NCBI GenBank assembly: GCA_030698575.1
Contig: JAUYMQ010000518.1
Location: 1 to 8,302 of the forward strand
Direction of reading: 5' to 3'
Length of the DNA: 8,302 nt
DNA from: Deltaproteobacteria bacterium
GTDB lineage: Bacteria; JAUYMQ01
The notes under the pieces were generated by a model that was given only the letters and a program-made list of their open reading frames with translations, did no database searches and was not told where the DNA came from. How positions within the stretch are numbered: position 1 is the stretch's first letter; each line of letters opens with the position of its first letter. Below, in pieces: positions 584 to 8,302 of this stretch. The position numbers and the translations under genes were made by a program.

Positions 584-613
584 GTGTTTTCAGAGGGGAG
601 TGTTTTTCAAGAG
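584..613. repeat. Imperfect direct repeat in the leader of the acyl-CoA dehydrogenase gene
   Basis: GTGTTTTCAGAG (584-595) recurs as GTGTTTTTCAAGAG (600-613), differing by two inserted bases, with starts 16 bases apart. The pair lies 50-79 bases upstream of the ATG at 663. Spacing of about one and a half helical turns could fit a regulator site, but it may be chance in a T/A-richer patch. Function is unproven. Confidence 0.3.
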
Positions 614-650
614 AAGTATCTTCCAAGAAGGGTCCGCGACAGGGACCGAA

Positions 651-655
651 GGAGG
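651..655 (+). promoter_or_regulatory. Ribosome binding site that fixes the acyl-CoA dehydrogenase start
   Basis: GGAGG lies 7 bases before the ATG at 663. The same frame is open from a GTG at 600, but that codon has no comparable Shine-Dalgarno sequence, so 663 is the better start. Confidence 0.75.
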
Positions 656-662
656 GGGCGCC

Positions 663-2576
663 ATGGCCGAGGATCATCTCAAGGGACAGGTCACCGAAGA
701 GGAGGCCCGCGAGGTCGCCGAGGACGCGCGCGAGGAGAAGTGGGAGAACCCGAGCTTCACCAAGGAGCTCTTCATGGGGAACTTCCGGCTTGACCTCCTC
801 CATCCGTTCCCCGAGGAGACCCCGGAGCAGCGGGCGAAGGGGGACGCCTATCTCGATAAGCTCGGTCCCTTCATTCGTGATCACATCGATGCCGACGAGA
901 TCGACGCCACCGGTGACATGCCCCCTGCTGTTCTCGAGGGGCTGCGACAGCTTGGCGCCTTCGGAATGAAAATACCGGAAACCTACGGCGGGCTCGGTCT
1001 TTCGCAGACTTCCTACAGCCGCGCCGTCGAGATGGTGACCTCGCACTGCGGCTCGACGGCCGCCTGGCTTTCAGCGCACCAGTCCATCGGTGTTCCGCAG
1101 CCCCTGAAGCTTTTCGGAACCGATGAGCAGAAGAAGAAGTACTTCCCACGGCTCGCTGCCGGAGCGATATCTGCCTTCGCGCTGACGGAGCCCGAGGTCG
1201 GCTCCGACCCGGCGAACATGCGCACGACGGCCGAGCCGGTGGAGGGAGGGAAATTCTTCGAGATCACGGGCGAAAAACTCTGGTGCACGAACGGCGCCGT
1301 CGCCGACGTCCTGGTCGTGATGGCCCGGACGCCCTCGAAGATGGTGAACGGGCGGGAGAGGAAGCAGATCACGGCTTTCATCGTCGAGAAGGGCATGCCC
1401 GGCTTCGAGGTCATTCACCGCTGCCGCTTCATGGGAATGAACGGCATCCAGAACGGGCTCCTGCGGTTCAACAAGGTGCGCGTTCCGCGAGAGAACATCC
1501 TCTGGGGCGAGGGGCTGGGATTGAAGCTTGCGCTCATCACGCTGAATACCGGCAGGCTGACGCTGCCCGCTTCCTGCGTGGGGACGACGAAGCGCTGCAT
1601 CGAGATCCTGCGCGACTGGGCGAATGAACGAATCCAGTGGGGCACCGCCATCGGCAAGCACGAGGCAGTGGCGACAAGAATCGCAGACATGACTTCCATG
1701 ACGTTCGCCATGGAAGCGCTCACTTACCTGACCTGCGGCATGGTCGATCGCGGGGGATACGACATCCGGATCGAAGCGGCGGCTGCGAAGCTCTACAACA
1801 CCGAAGCAACCTGGGCGATCCTCCACGACACGCTTCAGATCCGCGGCGGCCGTGGCTACGAGACCGCTCCCTCGCTGCGGGCCCGGGGCGAGAAGCCCAT
1901 TCCCGTCGAGCGGATGGTTCGTGATTTCCGCGTGAACCTGATTCTCGAAGGCTCCACCGAGATCATGCACCTGTTCCTGGCGCGAGAGGCCGTGGATGCG
2001 CACTTTCAGCTCGCCGGGGTGCTCCTGGACCCGCGCGCCCCGGTTTCCGCCAAGGTTAAAGCGTTCGGAAAGGCCGCCGCTTTCTACGCGCGCTGGTATC
2101 CCACGCGCTGGCTCGCCGGGCTCCGGAGTCTTCGGTCCTACGACGAGTTCGGGGATCTGGCGAGGCACGTTCGCTACGTCGACCGGACCGCTGGTCGGCT
2201 GGCCCGCGGCGTCTTCCACTGCATGATGCTGTATCAGGCGAAGTTGGAGAAGAGGCAGCTGCTGCTGGCGCGTCTCGTGGACGTCGGCGCGGAACTTCTC
2301 GTGATGACCGCCGCCTGCGCCCGTGCCCAGGCAATGCGCAAGCGCGGGGAGAACGGAGAGAAGGCCGTCGCACTCGCCGATCACTTTTGCCGCGGCGCGC
2401 GCCGGCGCATCGACGATCTGTTCCGTAGGCTCTGGCGGAACGAGGACGTCCGATCCTACCGGCTCGCCCAGCGGGTTCTCGCCGGCGAGCACACCTGGCT
2501 CGAGGAGGGCCTGGCGCCGACCTACCCTGGGGTTCCCGCCGAGGCCCCGCGAGCGGCGGCCGGCGGCGCGCGCTGA
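663..2576 (+). CDS. Acyl-CoA dehydrogenase family protein (long, VLCAD-like form)
   Basis: This 637-residue flavoprotein most likely oxidises an acyl-CoA to the trans-2-enoyl-CoA in beta-oxidation, passing electrons to electron-transfer flavoprotein. A charged N-terminal stretch (residues 1-30) precedes the alpha-helical N domain. FALTEPEVGSD (about 172-182) and GEKLWCTNG (about 203-211) form the middle beta domain that contacts FAD and substrate. QIRGGRGYE begins at 392 and leads into the C-terminal helical domain. Glu429 in LEGSTEIM matches the catalytic base position used by VLCAD-type enzymes. Usual acyl-CoA dehydrogenases are about 380-400 residues. The extra 190 or so C-terminal residues are mostly helical and match the longer VLCAD/ACAD9-like layout; it is shorter than E. 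coli FadE. The start at ATG 663 is backed by GGAGG. No etf, thiolase or hydratase gene is adjacent, so substrate length is open. The family call is firm; the chain-length class is inference. Confidence 0.93.
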   Translation: MAEDHLKGQVTEEEAREVAEDAREEKWENPSFTKELFMGNFRLDLLHPFPEETPEQRAKGDAYLDKLGPFIRDHIDADEIDATGDMPPAVLEGLRQLGAFGMKIPETYGGLGLSQTSYSRAVEMVTSHCGSTAAWLSAHQSIGVPQPLKLFGTDEQKKKYFPRLAAGAISAFALTEPEVGSDPANMRTTAEPVEGGKFFEITGEKLWCTNGAVADVLVVMARTPSKMVNGRERKQITAFIVEKGMPGFEVIHRCRFMGMNGIQNGLLRFNKVRVPRENILWGEGLGLKLALITLNTGRLTLPASCVGTTKRCIEILRDWANERIQWGTAIGKHEAVATRIADMTSMTFAMEALTYLTCGMVDRGGYDIRIEAAAAKLYNTEATWAILHDTLQIRGGRGYETAPSLRARGEKPIPVERMVRDFRVNLILEGSTEIMHLFLAREAVDAHFQLAGVLLDPRAPVSAKVKAFGKAAAFYARWYPTRWLAGLRSLRSYDEFGDLARHVRYVDRTAGRLARGVFHCMMLYQAKLEKRQLLLARLVDVGAELLVMTAACARAQAMRKRGENGEKAVALADHFCRGARRRIDDLFRRLWRNEDVRSYRLAQRVLAGEHTWLEEGLAPTYPGVPAEAPRAAAGGAR

Positions 2577-2670: not shown

Positions 2671-3105
2671 CTACTCCGAAATGATGATGATCCCGGTCTC
2701 GCGAAGTTCGCGGAAGAAGTACTCGCGCGCCTTGCGCTGGGCCCCTTCGCGGATTCCCCGCTCGTCCGACGTCGCGATTGCCTCTACGCGATAGTTGTTC
2801 CCCTCCAGGTGAATCACCTTGATCGAGAGGCGAATTTCATGAAAAGCGAGTCCGCCCTCCACGCGCCCCTCGGCTACCAGGATCTGATGGGAACGATCGA
2901 TGGCCTTGACGTCGAAGTGCATTCCCTCGGCGGCCTGCGCGCATCGTTCGAGGACCGCGCCCAGATCGTCATCGCGAACAATCGCCGAGCGCTGACCTGG
3001 AAGCGCGCAGTTCATCCCCGCCAGGAACAGGAGGGCGATGAGGGCCCCGAGCAGTCCGGAGCGCATGAGGCTTCGCGCCGCAGGGTGGATCGAAGCAGGT
3101 TTCAA
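2671..3105 (-). CDS. Small exported protein of unknown function, possible lipoprotein
   Basis: The product is 144 residues. The longest start is TTG at 3105, with GGAGAG 8 bases upstream; an ATG at 3066 (residue 14) is an alternative with a weak binding site. Either start leaves a signal sequence: basic residues, then a hydrophobic run LLGALIALLFLAG (about 18-30), then Cys33. The residues before that Cys are G-M-N rather than the usual L-A/S-G/A, so lipidation is doubtful and ordinary cleavage or membrane anchoring is possible. The mature part is a compact mixed alpha/beta domain of about 105 residues with a helix (LGAVLERCAQAAEG), several strands (FDVKAID, ILVAEGRV, EIRLSIKVIHL, YRVEAIA) and a C-terminal helix. 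I do not recognise the family. Strong third-position G/C and the signal sequence support this strand over the open antisense frame. It diverges from the lipoprotein gene at 3230, hinting at a shared envelope role. Confidence 0.72.
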   Translation of the reverse strand: MKPASIHPAARSLMRSGLLGALIALLFLAGMNCALPGQRSAIVRDDDLGAVLERCAQAAEGMHFDVKAIDRSHQILVAEGRVEGGLAFHEIRLSIKVIHLEGNNYRVEAIATSDERGIREGAQRKAREYFFRELRETGIIIISE

Positions 3106-3229: not shown

Positions 3230-3949
3230 ATGCCAGAAACGCGCCGCGGCTTTCCGAAAGTCGAGCACCTTCCTCACTGGAAAAGAAGGCTGGCGCTCGG
3301 CGCCGCTCTGGCGCTTCTCATTGCCTGCGGGAAACCCCTCACCGGAAGCGGATACCTCGGCGCCTACGCGGACATGAAGGCCAACCGGTACCTCGAGGCC
3401 GAGAGCCACCTTCCCTGGCTCCGGATCGATCGGGACGCGGTGCTTCTCATCCAGCCGGTTCAGGCCTACTTCTACAGGGGGCGACGCCCGGTCGCCTTTC
3501 CGCGCCTGGCCCAGGCCTTCCAGGAGGCGCTGGCGCGGGAGATCGGAAAGACGCAGCTCTTCGCCCGCGTCGAAGAGGGAAGCTCGCTGATGATTCCCGC
3601 ATACGCCGACTGGGGGCTGCACGCGGTCCTCACCGAAGTTGATCTGGGCCTTCCGGAGTCGAACCTTGAACCGGGCGTATCCTACCGTGGAGCGAGGAGA
3701 ATCGGCGTGGAAGGGAAGATCTCGGACCTTCGCGGCGAGAGGACGCTCTTCAAATTCAAGGACGCGCGGGTGGCGCCTCCACCGAGGGGGCTCAATCCGA
3801 CCGAAGCCGAAGTGGAAGCGGAACTCGTGCGGGATCTGAACGCCATCGCGCGGGGCGTGGCCGACACAATGCGCCAGATCCACGCGGAATCGAATCAGGT
3901 CAAGCCGCCTGAGGCCCCGCCACCCGCGGACGCGACCCCGGCGCCGTAG
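3230..3949 (+). CDS. Outer-membrane-type lipoprotein, resembles DUF3313
   Basis: The product is 239 residues. The N terminus has a basic segment (WKRR, 17-20), a hydrophobic core (LALGAALALL) and a good lipobox L-I-A-C with Cys33 as the lipidated residue. The mature protein begins GKPLTGSGYLGAYADMK, then IDRDAVLLIQPVQAYF (about 66-81), a helix (FPRLAQAFQEALAREIGK), a strand pair containing WGLHAVLTEVDLG, an Arg/Lys-rich stretch to about 180, and a helix (about 189-219). The order 'GYL-x-x-Y', then a short loop, then '-PVQ-Y-', recalls the uncharacterised DUF3313 lipoproteins, but the match is from memory of the pattern. The tail after 222 is Pro/Ala-rich and probably disordered; its last 55 bases overlap the opposing gene. 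The start ATG has AGGA about 10 bases upstream. No enzymatic motif is visible. Confidence 0.8.
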   Translation: MPETRRGFPKVEHLPHWKRRLALGAALALLIACGKPLTGSGYLGAYADMKANRYLEAESHLPWLRIDRDAVLLIQPVQAYFYRGRRPVAFPRLAQAFQEALAREIGKTQLFARVEEGSSLMIPAYADWGLHAVLTEVDLGLPESNLEPGVSYRGARRIGVEGKISDLRGERTLFKFKDARVAPPPRGLNPTEAEVEAELVRDLNAIARGVADTMRQIHAESNQVKPPEAPPPADATPAP

Positions 3950-5007
3950 AAGGGCAGCTCGGCGACCGTGGCTGCCCCGGCCGGGGTAGTCTTGACCTCG
4001 ACACGCGTGCCCGGTGCCCTTGCGTCGCGGTCGAGATAGCCCAGCGCAAGGGGCCGCTTGAGGGTGGGGGAAAGGGCAGCGCTCGTGATCCAGCCGATCT
4101 CCGTTCCGTTCCGCTCGAGCTTCGTGCCGTGCGGGGGGAGTACCGCCCCGCCGTCATCGAGCAGGAGCCCCATCAGCAAGTGTTTGACCTGCCCCTTCGT
4201 GTGGACGCGCAGCACGATCTCCTGTCCCCGGTAGCATCCCTTCTTGTGATCGAGCGCCTTTTCGAGCCCGGCGGTCTGCGGGAGGGTGTCTTCGCCGAAA
4301 TCGACGCCCCCGCGGGGATAGCCGGCCTCGATGCGAAGGGTGTCGAGGGCCGCCCCCCCGACCGCGCGACCGCCCTCGGCCGCGATCCGCTCCAGAAGGG
4401 ATCCCCAGAGGCCCGGGAGTGTGGCCGCCGGGGCGATGATCTCGAACCCTTTTTCGCCGGTCCAGGAAGCGCCCGCGAGGAGCACGGTGGCGCCCGCGAA
4501 GGGCCGCTCGACGAAGTGGTGGTCGGGGAGTTCGGCAACGGCTCCGCCCAGGACCCCGGCGGCAACGAGAGGGGCGGCCGGCCCGAACAGGCCCAGCATC
4601 CCGAGCGCCTCGCCCTCGTTCGTCAGCGCGGCGTCATCCCCGACGAGATACCGGTCGAGGGAGGCGAAGCCCGCCTCACGCGTCTCGGCAGGCGCGTGCA
4701 TCAGGAAATCGCTCGAACGCCTGAGCACGATCACCTCCGAAACGATCTTCCCCCTCCCCGTGAGGCTCAGCGCATAGCAACCCTGGCCCTGCCGGAGGGA
4801 GGCGATGTCGTTCGTCAAAATCCCCTGGAGAAATCGCTCTGCGTCGGGCCCGGAGAGCCGCCACAGGCCCCGGTGCGAGAGATCCGCGACGCCGGCATGG
4901 TTCCGAACGGCGAGATGTTCGGCAACGGGGTCGCCGTAGTGGAGCGGAGCCTCGACGGGCCCAAGGCGTTCCATGGTGGCGCCGAGACGCTCATGCTCGT
5001 TTCTCAT
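3895..5007 (-). CDS. ygfZ: YgfZ/GcvT-like folate-binding protein
   Basis: The 370-residue product belongs to the folate-binding family that includes YgfZ and the glycine-cleavage T protein. YgfZ proteins support assembly or repair of certain iron-sulfur enzymes in a tetrahydrofolate-dependent way, in the cytoplasm. The N-terminal part has the family pattern HAGVADLSHRGLWRLSG then DAERFLQGILTNDI (about 37-68) and GRGKIVSEVIV (84-94). The hallmark KGCYRGQE occupies 256-263, with Cys258 as the conserved YgfZ cysteine; this separates it from GcvT itself. A C-terminal barrel follows (about 272-352), and a Gly/Ala-rich tail ends it. YgfZ homologues are commonly 300-350 residues, so the length is slightly long. 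The start at ATG 5007 has only a weak ribosome binding site; Met12 (ATG at 4974) is an alternative. No glycine-cleavage genes are adjacent. Its 3' end overlaps the convergent lipoprotein gene by 55 bases. Confidence 0.9.
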   Translation of the reverse strand: MRNEHERLGATMERLGPVEAPLHYGDPVAEHLAVRNHAGVADLSHRGLWRLSGPDAERFLQGILTNDIASLRQGQGCYALSLTGRGKIVSEVIVLRRSSDFLMHAPAETREAGFASLDRYLVGDDAALTNEGEALGMLGLFGPAAPLVAAGVLGGAVAELPDHHFVERPFAGATVLLAGASWTGEKGFEIIAPAATLPGLWGSLLERIAAEGGRAVGGAALDTLRIEAGYPRGGVDFGEDTLPQTAGLEKALDHKKGCYRGQEIVLRVHTKGQVKHLLMGLLLDDGGAVLPPHGTKLERNGTEIGWITSAALSPTLKRPLALGYLDRDARAPGTRVEVKTTPAGAATVAELPFYGAGVASAGGGASGGLT

Positions 5008-5174: not shown

Positions 5175-5262
5175 TTGAATCTCTTTTCGCCGTCGGTGGC
5201 TTCACACTGCCGCGCGGCTTGTGATCCGTCGGACGGCACCCTTAAACGCTCCGGGGGTGAGA

Positions 5263-6177
5263 ATGCAGTGGGCTGAGCGTGTCGCCGCAAGCCTCGGGCT
5301 CGATCTGGGCTCGGGCGTGGCGTCGCTGCAGCGCGTGGAGTCCGCCGAACGGGTACGGGGGTTGTTGCTGAAGGTCATTGCGGACGGCGCCGACGTTTAC
5401 GGCGACTTCGTGAGCCCCTTCGAGCGGCAGCACCTTGCGCCCCTCCATCTCCGCGCCGATGAACTCGAACTGGCGGTCCTTCGCGCTCCGGCCGGATTCC
5501 GCCCGCAGCTCAGGCTGTTCTTCGGCCTGGGAACCCTTACCTATTCCTTCGAGGCCGAGGTCACCCGCCAGAGCGAATCCGAGATTGCAGTCCGCTTGCC
5601 GCGCGTCCTCGATTTCGGCGAGCAACGCCATGCGCGCCGCTGGGATTTGCATCACGAATCGGACGCGGCCCCGCACATCCAGCTGAACGGACAGGGCTCC
5701 CCTCGCTACCCCCTTCAGGATCTCTCGCTCACGGGATTCTCGCTCCACGTGCCGGACGGAGACCTGCCCTTCGAATCGGGGCGCCGTATTTCGGGTCTCA
5801 AGGTGCGCGTGAAGGGCAATCCGGTTGATCTCCCGAGCGTCGAGATACGCCACATCACGACACTGGATGGCTCGAGGGGTTGGCGGGTGGGCGTCGAGGT
5901 CGGCCTTCTGCGCCGCCCCATTCGGGCACGGCATCTCGATTTCCCGCTCGACGAAGGGGCCCGGAAACGGCGCCATGCGCGCACGCCGGCGGGACGGCAA
6001 GGCGAGGGTGCAGTTGACGTCGTGCGCTTCTTCAACCGCCGGGGAGAGAGAATCGTGGGGATCCTCGATTCGACGTTCGGCGATGCGGCGAAGGATCCGG
6101 TGCCGGTCGTGATTCTTCCGCCGGCCACCGGCCGGCGCAAAGAAACGCTCAGCGCCCTTGCGCTTACGATCGTCTAA
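5263..6177 (+). CDS. YcgR-like PilZ-domain protein fused to the first part of a LuxD-like hydrolase (ends at in-frame TAA)
   Basis: The product is 304 residues up to the TAA. Residues 30-118 form a beta-rich domain (QLRLFFGLGTLTYSFEAEV, then EIAVRLPRVLDF) resembling the N-terminal barrel of YcgR. The PilZ domain follows: RHARR (122-126) fits the RxxxR motif and DLSLTG (153-158) fits [D/N]xSxxG, which together bind cyclic di-GMP. It ends near 215. A basic linker (about 218-248) leads into VVRFFNRRGERIVGILDS, VVILPPATGRRKETLSALALTIV (253-304), which is the start of an alpha/beta hydrolase: first strands plus a probable oxyanion-hole segment. The fold is cut there. The same frame resumes right after the stop, so this is probably the front of a longer protein. 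The frame is open from a GTG at 5221, but that extension has TTA and AGA codons, unlike its neighbours, and no ribosome binding site. ATG 5263 has GGGGG five bases upstream. Confidence 0.8.
   Translation: MQWAERVAASLGLDLGSGVASLQRVESAERVRGLLLKVIADGADVYGDFVSPFERQHLAPLHLRADELELAVLRAPAGFRPQLRLFFGLGTLTYSFEAEVTRQSESEIAVRLPRVLDFGEQRHARRWDLHHESDAAPHIQLNGQGSPRYPLQDLSLTGFSLHVPDGDLPFESGRRISGLKVRVKGNPVDLPSVEIRHITTLDGSRGWRVGVEVGLLRRPIRARHLDFPLDEGARKRRHARTPAGRQGEGAVDVVRFFNRRGERIVGILDSTFGDAAKDPVPVVILPPATGRRKETLSALALTIV
6175..6177 (+). other. In-frame TAA inside the hydrolase fold
   Basis: The TAA follows GTC and is followed by AAT TTT CGG. It is the only stop between 5263 and 8110 in this frame. It lies between the first hydrolase helix and the second core strand, a position that is not a domain boundary. 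Confidence 0.9.
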
Positions 6178-6198
6178 AATTTTCGGCGACGGGGGCGC

Positions 6199-6210
6199 GA
6201 GGTCGCGGTG
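6199..6210 (+). promoter_or_regulatory. Possible internal ribosome binding site and GTG restart
   Basis: GAGG (6199-6202) lies 5 bases before GTG 6208-6210, in the same frame and 30 bases past the TAA. That spacing would allow termination-reinitiation and independent synthesis of the downstream part. Such short matches are common in GC-rich coding DNA, so this is suggestive only. Confidence 0.35.
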
Positions 6211-8112
6211 CTCCGGTTCGACGGCATCCGGCGGCACGGAGAAAGCGCCAACGATCCGGAGGCCCGCAAGCCCGGGATGGAGATGGTTCACTCGACGATG
6301 GGGCAGGCCGTCGCCGACATTCATGCGACCCTCGACTATCTCTACGACAACGAGCGCTTCGAGCCCTCCCGCGTGGCCGTCATCTCCATGAGTTCAGCGT
6401 CGATCGAGGCAAGGTGCGCCATCGTCGAGGACAACGGCGCGCGCATCCACTACTGGATAAGCCTCGCGGGCGCGCCCGACTTCCACGACACACTGAAGAA
6501 CATCTGCGGCGGGCTCGATCTGCTGGGATCCCACAGGAACGGCGTTCCCTTGGGGATCCTGCCCGTCCTGGGAAACCCCGTTGACCTCGATCATTTCTTC
6601 GCCGACGCCTTCGAGCGGCGGCTGGTGTATCTGCGCGACGCCCTCGAGGAGATGCCCAAGGTCGAGATCCCCGTCACCTGGATCTACGGACGGTACGACG
6701 ACTGGGTGCATCCCGATCGCGTACAGAATCTCATGAGCGTCAGGAGCCCGGCGCCGCGGGAACTGTTCTCGATACCAACGGGCCACCAGATGCGCACCAG
6801 CGAGGAAGCCATGGAGGCCTTCAAGCTGGTGACCGGCTGCCTCTGGAAGTTCTTCAACGGCAGCACGATCCGCGCCTCCGCCCCTGATCTCGGCAAGCTC
6901 GCGGCGGTTCGGGAGGCCGAGAAGGTCCGCCTTGCGAAGTCTGGCGAGCCCGACCACAGGGGTTTCTGGCGGGAATATCTCGAGCGCAAGGATCGCTACC
7001 TCGGATTCGACATCATTCGCGAGACGGACGCCTACACGGATCTCATGGCGACGCAGATGGCGCATCTCGATCTCCGGGGAGGGGAGCGTATCCTTGACGC
7101 CGGATGCGGAACGGGAAACTTCGCCGAACTGCTCATCGAGAAAGCTTCTTCCGGCGAGGCGCCGATGCCTTCGGAGATCATGCTCGCGGACTACGTGCCG
7201 GAGGCGCTCGAAACGGCCCGTCGCAAGCTCGGCGAGATGGCCCGCCGCGCCCCGATCGCCTTCCCGGAGATCGGCTATCGGACCGCCGACTTCGAAATGT
7301 CACGGCTGGGGCCCGTGGCGGAAGCGCTCGCGGCGGACGCGTTCGACTGGCGGGCGCTGGAGGGGCAGGTGGAAGGTCTTCCGGCACGGCTCATCGCGCA
7401 ACTCGGCGAAGGCCGCGATCCGGAGGCGCTCCGCATGGCGCGCGGGGACGATCCCCGGTCAGAGCTCGGCGACTCGCTCGCCGCTGCCTACGGCCCCGAG
7501 GGCGCTGAGGTTCTGGAGGATCTCGGAAGAGCGGCGAGGTTTCTGCGACGCGCGCTGGTCCGCGAGGATCTTGTCGACCCCGACCGCCATGATCCATCCG
7601 CGCCGTCCGCGTATGACGTCCTGACCGCGGCGGCCTTGCGCTGGAAACGTCTCTCCTTCGGAAACGCCGGACTCGCTATGCACCTGCCCTTCGAGGAACG
7701 CTCCTACAATCGCATCCTTTCGAGCCTGGTCGTCTGCTACCTCTACCGGCCCGAAGCCACCATCGGGGAATTTCACCGGCTTCTCGCACCGGGCGGTTCG
7801 CTCGTGCTGTCGAGCATGAAGCCGGATGCCGACGTCTCGCGCATCTACATGCGGCTCATCGAACGGCTCCGGCGCTCCCCGGATCTCGAGATTCCCGAAG
7901 GCCTCACGCGGGACGATCTCCTGAACTCCGCTCGCACCTTCCTGAACAAGGCGGCCGGGATTCTGAACCTCGAGGAATCCGGCGCCTTCGAGTTCCTCCC
8001 GCGTGAGCGCCTCGTTAAGATTTTCCGTGACGCAGGATTCCGTGACGTTCACGTGACCGACTCCTTCGGAGACCCGCCACAGGCCTATGTGCTCTCGGGC
8101 CGCCGCGCCTGA
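6208..8112 (+). CDS. LuxD-like alpha/beta hydrolase fused to a SAM-dependent methyltransferase (N terminus cut off by upstream stop)
   Basis: The frame from GTG 6208 gives 634 residues. Residues 1-215 complete a hydrolase of the LuxD acyltransferase type: LRFDGIRRHGES (2-13), nucleophile elbow SMSSA with Ser62, YDDWV with Asp164 aligned to the LuxD acid, and TGH with His193. LuxD takes acyl groups from acyl-ACP and releases fatty acid; whether this enzyme does so is unknown. After a charged linker (about 219-285), a class I methyltransferase begins: ERILDAGCGTGNF (293-305) is SAM-binding motif I, and MLADYVPEALETA (325-337) carries an acidic residue, Asp328, for the SAM ribose. A mostly helical insertion (about 365-480) separates the third strand from LPFEERSYNRILSSLVVCYL (493-512). 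HRLLAPGGSLVLSSMKPD (523-540) is the usual late motif, and YVLSGRRA ends the last strand. The first hydrolase strands lie before the TAA, so this part alone lacks a full fold; the methyltransferase should be complete. Confidence 0.85.
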   Translation: MLRFDGIRRHGESANDPEARKPGMEMVHSTMGQAVADIHATLDYLYDNERFEPSRVAVISMSSASIEARCAIVEDNGARIHYWISLAGAPDFHDTLKNICGGLDLLGSHRNGVPLGILPVLGNPVDLDHFFADAFERRLVYLRDALEEMPKVEIPVTWIYGRYDDWVHPDRVQNLMSVRSPAPRELFSIPTGHQMRTSEEAMEAFKLVTGCLWKFFNGSTIRASAPDLGKLAAVREAEKVRLAKSGEPDHRGFWREYLERKDRYLGFDIIRETDAYTDLMATQMAHLDLRGGERILDAGCGTGNFAELLIEKASSGEAPMPSEIMLADYVPEALETARRKLGEMARRAPIAFPEIGYRTADFEMSRLGPVAEALAADAFDWRALEGQVEGLPARLIAQLGEGRDPEALRMARGDDPRSELGDSLAAAYGPEGAEVLEDLGRAARFLRRALVREDLVDPDRHDPSAPSAYDVLTAAALRWKRLSFGNAGLAMHLPFEERSYNRILSSLVVCYLYRPEATIGEFHRLLAPGGSLVLSSMKPDADVSRIYMRLIERLRRSPDLEIPEGLTRDDLLNSARTFLNKAAGILNLEESGAFEFLPRERLVKIFRDAGFRDVHVTDSFGDPPQAYVLSGRRA

Positions 8113-8302
8113 CCCCGCGGCCGCCCTGAGCCCCGCACGAACAGACCATCCATCTCCCGAAACCGCCCGATCCGCCCGAAGCGATCTCATTACAGTGCTG
8201 GTTCAGCGCAATCCTTAAAGCCAGGCGCTCCGACACCCGATGAGAATCCGGGCCCCGCCCTATCCGGGCGTGCGCCCGAAAGGGCGCCATGCGTCCGGCA
8301 CG
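8113..8302. other. Non-coding tail after the methyltransferase, no gene seen
   Basis: No convincing gene is visible to the end of the window and no T-tract terminator follows the stop at 8112. An ATG at 8289 on the plus strand leaves only five codons before the edge; a purine run AAAGGG lies just upstream, so a new gene could start there, but this cannot be judged. Confidence 0.45.
8265..8287. other. Two overlapping hairpins, one with a GAAA tetraloop
   Basis: CGGGC (8265-8269) pairs with GCCCG (8274-8278) around a 4-base loop. GCGCCC (8272-8277) pairs perfectly with GGGCGC (8282-8287) around GAAA, a stable tetraloop of the GNRA class. The two share 8272-8278 and cannot form together. No T tract follows, so a classic terminator is not indicated. 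Confidence 0.4.

Follow-up and report, generated by a model that had tools for sequence, protein, structure and literature searches.

The DNA analyzed here (the window) is the whole of an 8302-base contig, C163, from a deltaproteobacterial assembly (GCA_030698575.1, hereafter G000; 653 contigs, 4.6% contamination). On its forward strand, a single frame running from ATG 5263 to TGA 8110-8112 encodes a PilZ domain, a LuxD-like hydrolase and a class I methyltransferase dependent on S-adenosylmethionine (SAM), in that order, and the gene for a membrane receptor lies directly downstream. We put it at about an even chance that this frame encodes, or once did encode, an enzyme that makes a signal derived from fatty acids, responds to cyclic di-GMP (c-di-GMP) and is paired with the receptor of that signal. 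The signal would probably be the methyl ester of a fatty acid, either hydroxylated or plain. We refer to the three-domain protein below as the putative synthase, and feature positions are collected in Table 1.

The same order of domains was found in five genomes from four phylum-level groups (G000; G035 and G102; G583; G148), uninterrupted in four of the five, and is thus more than a chance arrangement. The intact homologues span 855-1151 amino acids (G035, 1074; G102, 1102; G583, 1151; G148, 855), with a second PilZ domain in G035, G102 and G583 and an N-terminal receiver (REC) domain in G583. In a panel of 386 genomes spread over the bacterial domain, the three-domain protein occurred in three (G000, G035 and G148), and G148 alone gave a LuxD-family match at 1e-6. 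Searches by phylum returned 2 true members out of 7 in the phylum of G035 and G102, 1 out of 3 in that of G148 and 1 out of 195 in that of G583. Two further phylum searches returned none out of 4 and none out of 95, the sole match among the 95 being to PilZ only. A contig scan for close homologues yielded one locus, an ordinary UbiE-type methyltransferase beside a TypA-like GTPase gene.

An earlier note on this DNA had read the three domains in one frame, with Ser, Asp and His positions matching those of LuxD in the hydrolase and a SAM motif in the methyltransferase. The frame does encode all three, although it is not open, being interrupted by a TAA at 6175-6177. The individual assignments are borne out by the motif, profile and structural matches given below. 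The note would have been wrong had homologues never carried the three domains together; the four intact proteins do carry them together.

The N-terminal part is a PilZ module of the YcgR type. The Pfam PilZ match of the window was weak (E 0.0021; 18.8 bits vs a cut-off of 22.5), and all four relatives scored over the cut-off. The complete pair of motifs, RxxxR and D/NxSxxG, was present in the window and in at least one PilZ domain of every relative. When an AlphaFold2 model of residues 1-231 (low confidence, predicted local distance difference test score, pLDDT, 48) was compared with the PDB, the best 28 matches were all PilZ proteins, led by PP4397 and MrkH, with MotI, YcgR and VCA0042 within the first twelve. 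The module thus resembles the receptors YcgR, PP4397, VCA0042 and MrkH in its YcgR-N barrel followed by a PilZ domain with both motifs. Those receptors, however, act on flagella or DNA, whereas the PilZ domain of the window is fused to two catalytic domains. The window's genome gave 15 GGDEF matches, so that c-di-GMP is likely to be available.

The middle domain is best described, on its profile and structural matches, as a divergent LuxD-like hydrolase. LuxD (PDB 1THT, PF02273) is the myristoyl-acyl carrier protein (ACP) thioesterase of bacterial bioluminescence, with Ser114, Asp211 and His241 as its catalytic residues; their positions were found by counting along 1THT in the alignment. The window hydrolase passed the PF02273 (Acyl_transf_2) cut-off narrowly (21.2 bits vs 20.3) and matched 1THT with an E value of 3e-4, and the Ser-Asp-His triad was invariant in all five family proteins. 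The G148 protein was a far stronger match (PF02273, 8e-35 and 120.9 bits; 1THT, 5e-28), its alignment extending through the C-terminal tail. For G583 the PF02273 score was 13 bits, and G035 and G102 were not listed, making LuxD membership borderline for the much diverged subgroup of the window. A structure model of the full read-through protein had low confidence (pLDDT 49), and we read from it the hydrolase fold alone, for which 1THT and feruloyl esterases were among the best matches and which also resembles cinnamoyl esterases. Unlike LuxD, the domain shares its polypeptide with PilZ and methyltransferase domains, and no luxC, luxE, luxA or luxB neighbors were seen in the loci of the family that we read.

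The C-terminal methyltransferase scored well over the Pfam cut-offs for Methyltransf_31, Methyltransf_23 and Methyltransf_11, and its DAGCGTG motif could be located. A PxxDxS motif is conserved in the methyltransferases of the family. A helical insertion of about 150 amino acids is present in all members except G148. Plasmid searches with the C-terminal part of the window protein returned generic methyltransferases only.

The window stops 63 bases into the receptor frame, but another contig of this assembly, C51, overlaps positions 7695-8302 of the window with 96% DNA identity over 608 bases and continues the frame. Given an overlap at 96% identity, the assembly contains either a mixture of strain variants or two copies. 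On C51 the receptor has 933 amino acids and comprises six transmembrane helices (6TM), a HisKA-HATPase kinase, a REC domain and a second HisKA-HATPase kinase. A receptor gene lies directly downstream of the putative synthase in all five members: a 6TM kinase in G000 (through C51), G035, G102 and G583, and a 7TM-GGDEF protein in G148. The junctions in the relatives are overlapping (G583, G035) or a few bases apart, the 7TM-GGDEF gene of G148 beginning 4 bases past the synthase stop codon. The four 6TM domains could be aligned with invariant residues. All four relatives carry c-di-GMP enzymes in or beside the operon: besides the GGDEF protein of G148, a REC-HD-GYP gene follows the kinase gene in G035 and G102, and HD-GYP is fused to the kinase in G583.

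A profile of the 6TM domain found it in 20 of the 386 panel genomes. We fetched the neighborhoods of the hits in 18 of these (G000 and G035 left out), and in 7 of the 18 the immediate neighbor of the sensor is a methyltransferase of 458-521 amino acids belonging to one family, a count that is descriptive, as the counting profile was built from those same methyltransferase genes. One of them, in G210, shares 39.6% identity, across 97% of its length, with a methyltransferase encoded by a plasmid of Paraburkholderia graminis, pPHS1_P, where it is followed by a 6TM kinase and two response regulators. This plasmid was typed as conjugative. The 6TM domain of our family scored 40-86 bits against the sensors of such PhcB-like operons (62 bits for P. 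graminis), compared with at most 2.4 bits for unrelated membrane proteins and shuffled controls.

The gene order of the P. graminis operon is that of phcBSRQ. In the Phc system, PhcB makes methyl 3-hydroxymyristate, which is sensed by PhcS (PMC8578825); PhcS is phosphorylated at His230 (PMC11960443), the phosphorylatable His of the P. graminis kinase being residue 233, and PhcR carries a C-terminal kinase (PMC9102662). The window family resembles Phc (PhcB-PhcS-PhcR/PhcQ, from Ralstonia and relatives) in the placing of a methyltransferase gene ahead of a membrane sensor kinase with receiver and kinase modules, in the homology of the 6TM sensor, and in a kinase-REC-kinase arrangement that looks like PhcS and PhcR fused. 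It differs in the fusion of a LuxD-like hydrolase and a PilZ domain of the canonical c-di-GMP-binding type to the methyltransferase, in the HD-GYP output of the relatives and in the methyltransferase domain itself, and no PhcA-type regulator was seen near the synthase loci. The best reading of these comparisons is that the receptor is common to both and the synthase is not, so that the system may work like Phc without its enzyme being a member of the PhcB family.

From these features, all of them read from sequence, we infer the chemical steps, the direction of c-di-GMP control and the ligand. The LuxD-like domain would take an acyl group from acyl-ACP or acyl-coenzyme A, forming an acyl-enzyme on its Ser, and would then free the fatty acid, whose carboxyl group the methyltransferase would methylate with SAM. 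The YcgR-type module would switch the enzyme with c-di-GMP, and the 6TM kinase, encoded by the very next gene, would sense the diffusible product. In the relatives the kinase presumably passes its output to a c-di-GMP phosphodiesterase of the HD-GYP type, either fused to it or encoded by the following gene, and the G148 neighbor is diguanylate-cyclase-like, so that c-di-GMP may link the production of the signal to its perception in a closed loop. The guess in the earlier note, of an acyl group being set free and then methylated, perhaps to give a signal, gains support from the downstream receptor, from the c-di-GMP enzymes of the relatives and from the Phc-like receptor domain, although its chemistry stands as a proposal.

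Several observations weigh against a signal synthase. The family is known from five members only, and the hydrolases of the window, G035 and G102 are just 17-21% identical to a LuxD. Membership of the window methyltransferase in the PhcB family was rejected, as it is no nearer the PhcB-like family than generic methyltransferases (hhalign scores of 64.9 for PhcB-like vs 57.8 for UbiE and 68.7 for another generic methyltransferase); the PhcB-like family of this comparison was made up solely of the 6TM-sensor neighbors and P. graminis. Because the methyltransferase is not specifically PhcB-like, it is the context and the LuxD-like domain that carry the case for fatty-acid methylation. Most other panel loci with the 6TM sensor have no such synthase, so that the sensor need not bind a methyl ester. 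Finally, the frame is interrupted in the window's copy.

The TAA splits the frame into two open reading frames (ORFs), 5221-6177 (GTG start, 318 amino acids) and 6208-8112, and lies within the hydrolase, in a helix flanked by two of its core strands, and so does not separate domains. With the stop placed inside this fold and the first core strands missing from the downstream ORF, the two ORFs are unlikely to yield two working proteins; readthrough by stop-codon reassignment is unsupported, the 15 GGDEF matches of this genome being free of internal stops. The copy is therefore either a mutated gene or the product of an assembly or sequencing error. If the TAA reflects a genuine nonsense mutation, the gene is decayed and the system non-functional in the window's lineage, which would still allow the proposed function for the family; we consider this a serious contender, at slightly less than even chances. 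The place of the stop and the weakness of both other explanations count in its favor, yet the only direct sign of a real break is the TAA itself. Against decay, the 2.85-kb frame has no further lesion, and its GC content by codon position is similar on both sides of the stop. The 3′ end of the frame is also intact on C51, where 7 synonymous and 5 non-synonymous changes in the overlap (P 0.014 vs a 3:1 expectation) show selection at the protein level. These observations favor an assembly error or a very recent loss, an error being possible because the assembly is fragmented, besides its contamination.

The main alternatives to a signal synthase concern what an intact protein would do. It might serve a c-di-GMP-controlled modification of membranes or lipids, the hydrolase trimming an acyl lipid, the methyltransferase modifying a head group or another lipid, and the kinase controlling c-di-GMP and not sensing a product. 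PilZ proteins often control envelope processes, and a role of this kind would suit the lipid-binding-like SRPBCC domain of the G148 protein, the weak matches of the methyltransferase to many families and the occurrence of the 6TM sensor without a synthase. Even so, a molecule that is both made and sensed accounts better for the adjacent receptor in five of five members and its Phc-like sensor domain, and we regard lipid modification as improbable. More doubtful still is a turnover enzyme, in which the methyltransferase makes an ester, the hydrolase removes it or a competing ester, and c-di-GMP sets the balance: the full serine-hydrolase triad, the esterase-like matches of the low-confidence fold model and a hydrolase of Ideonella that degrades 3-hydroxypalmitic acid methyl ester (PMC10349395) are consistent with it, but the closest sequence match is the thioesterase LuxD, C-terminal tail included, and a single chain that both makes and destroys the ester would run a futile cycle unless it were under strict gating.

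The proposed synthase-receptor pair can also be set beside the Rpf system, with its layout RpfF-RpfC-RpfG, which uses a diffusible signal factor. The idea of a fatty-acid signal is common to both, and in G035 and G102 the putative synthase stands beside a hybrid membrane kinase and a REC-HD-GYP protein. However, the window family is without an RpfF-type crotonase, the parts of the synthase are unrelated, and its kinase has a second kinase module.

In the literature that we found, fatty-acid methyl-ester signaling is described from Ralstonia. Our search found no paper combining PilZ, LuxD and methyltransferase, and none linking PhcB-type synthesis with PilZ or c-di-GMP binding, even where PhcB and PilZ were mentioned together. 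The wider finding is a c-di-GMP-linked pair of putative synthase and receptor in at least four phylum-level groups, which points to an unrecognized way of making and sensing a fatty-acid signal. If the proposal is true, the synthase carries within itself both a domain that releases its substrate and a switch for c-di-GMP, it has a cognate receptor, and further pairs could be predicted from the common 6TM sensor. It thereby becomes testable whether c-di-GMP, by acting on the enzyme itself, controls the making of a diffusible lipid signal.

Table 1. Positions of the features discussed (amino acid numbers count from ATG 5263)
Feature	Sequence	Position	Strand	Remarks
N-terminal part of synthase frame	window	5263-6177	+	304 aa from ATG 5263; terminates at in-frame TAA
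Ribosome-binding-site-like GGGGGTGAG	window	immediately 5′ of ATG 5263	+	seen in sequence
YcgR-N-like barrel	window	about 5440-5625	+	precedes PilZ domain
PilZ domain	window	5626-5898	+	Pfam PilZ E 0.0021; motifs; fold search
PilZ motif RHARR (RxxxR)	window	5626-5640	+	kept in relatives
PilZ motif DLSLTG (DxSxxG)	window	5719-5736	+	kept in relatives
LuxD-like alpha/beta hydrolase	window	6010-6897	+	interrupted by TAA; Pfam, 1THT match, alignments
In-frame TAA	window	6175-6177	+	in hydrolase helix after first core strands; relatives have an amino acid there
Hydrolase Ser (S377)	window	6391-6393	+	opposite LuxD Ser114
Hydrolase Asp (D479)	window	6697-6699	+	opposite LuxD Asp211
Hydrolase His (H508)	window	6784-6786	+	opposite LuxD His241
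Class I SAM-dependent methyltransferase domain	window	6952-8112	+	Pfam Methyltransf_31/23/11; alignments
DAGCGTG motif	window	7096-7116	+	within methyltransferase domain
Receptor kinase frame, first 21 codons	window	8240-8302	+	cut by contig end; continued on C51
G148 putative synthase	L029	7901-10468		SRPBCC (Polyketide_cyc) lipid-binding-like domain, placed after PilZ and before LuxD
P. graminis Phc-like operon	L082 (plasmid pPHS1_P)	6980-11355		methyltransferase, 445-aa 6TM kinase, two response regulators
G021 PilZ-methyltransferase	L064	5539-6954		PilZ fused directly to PhcB-like methyltransferase; adjoins 6TM kinase
G174 PilZ-methyltransferase	L068	3754-5160		PilZ fused directly to PhcB-like methyltransferase; adjoins 6TM kinase
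Acyl-CoA dehydrogenase	window	600-2576		ACAD9/ACADV-type C-terminal domain; ordinary, outside operon
Small protein	window	2671-3105	-	lipoprotein-like N-terminus; no confident Pfam match
Small protein	window	3230-3949	+	lipoprotein-like N-terminus; no confident Pfam match
GcvT/YgfZ-like folate-binding protein	window	3895-5007	-	divergent from synthase gene

Among the seven sensor-linked methyltransferases, two (G021 and G174) have an N-terminal PilZ domain over the Pfam cut-off, and their architecture marks them as a second type of putative PilZ-synthase with the same class of receptor. Taken with the window family, they suggest a scattered class of cell-cell signaling systems in which the synthase itself would be a c-di-GMP receptor, with PilZ fused either to a LuxD-like hydrolase and a methyltransferase or to a PhcB-like methyltransferase, every such synthase having a 6TM or 7TM receptor as its partner, often with a c-di-GMP enzyme as output, closing the loop. 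We offer this generalization tentatively and lean somewhat against it.

Other 6TM loci of the panel show further variants. In G379 (L063 7195-9654), an 819-amino acid protein with two PilZ stretches and a C-terminal region that looks acyltransferase-like by eye is encoded upstream of a 6TM-kinase-REC-kinase gene and a REC-kinase gene; it is possibly a third type of synthase. In G273 (L067 4266-7151) and G221 (L075 3926-6738), a PhcB-like methyltransferase is paired with a fusion of the 6TM domain to a class III nucleotide cyclase, confirmed by Pfam in G273 and recognized by eye in G221, which suggests a cyclic-nucleotide output of the same sensor.

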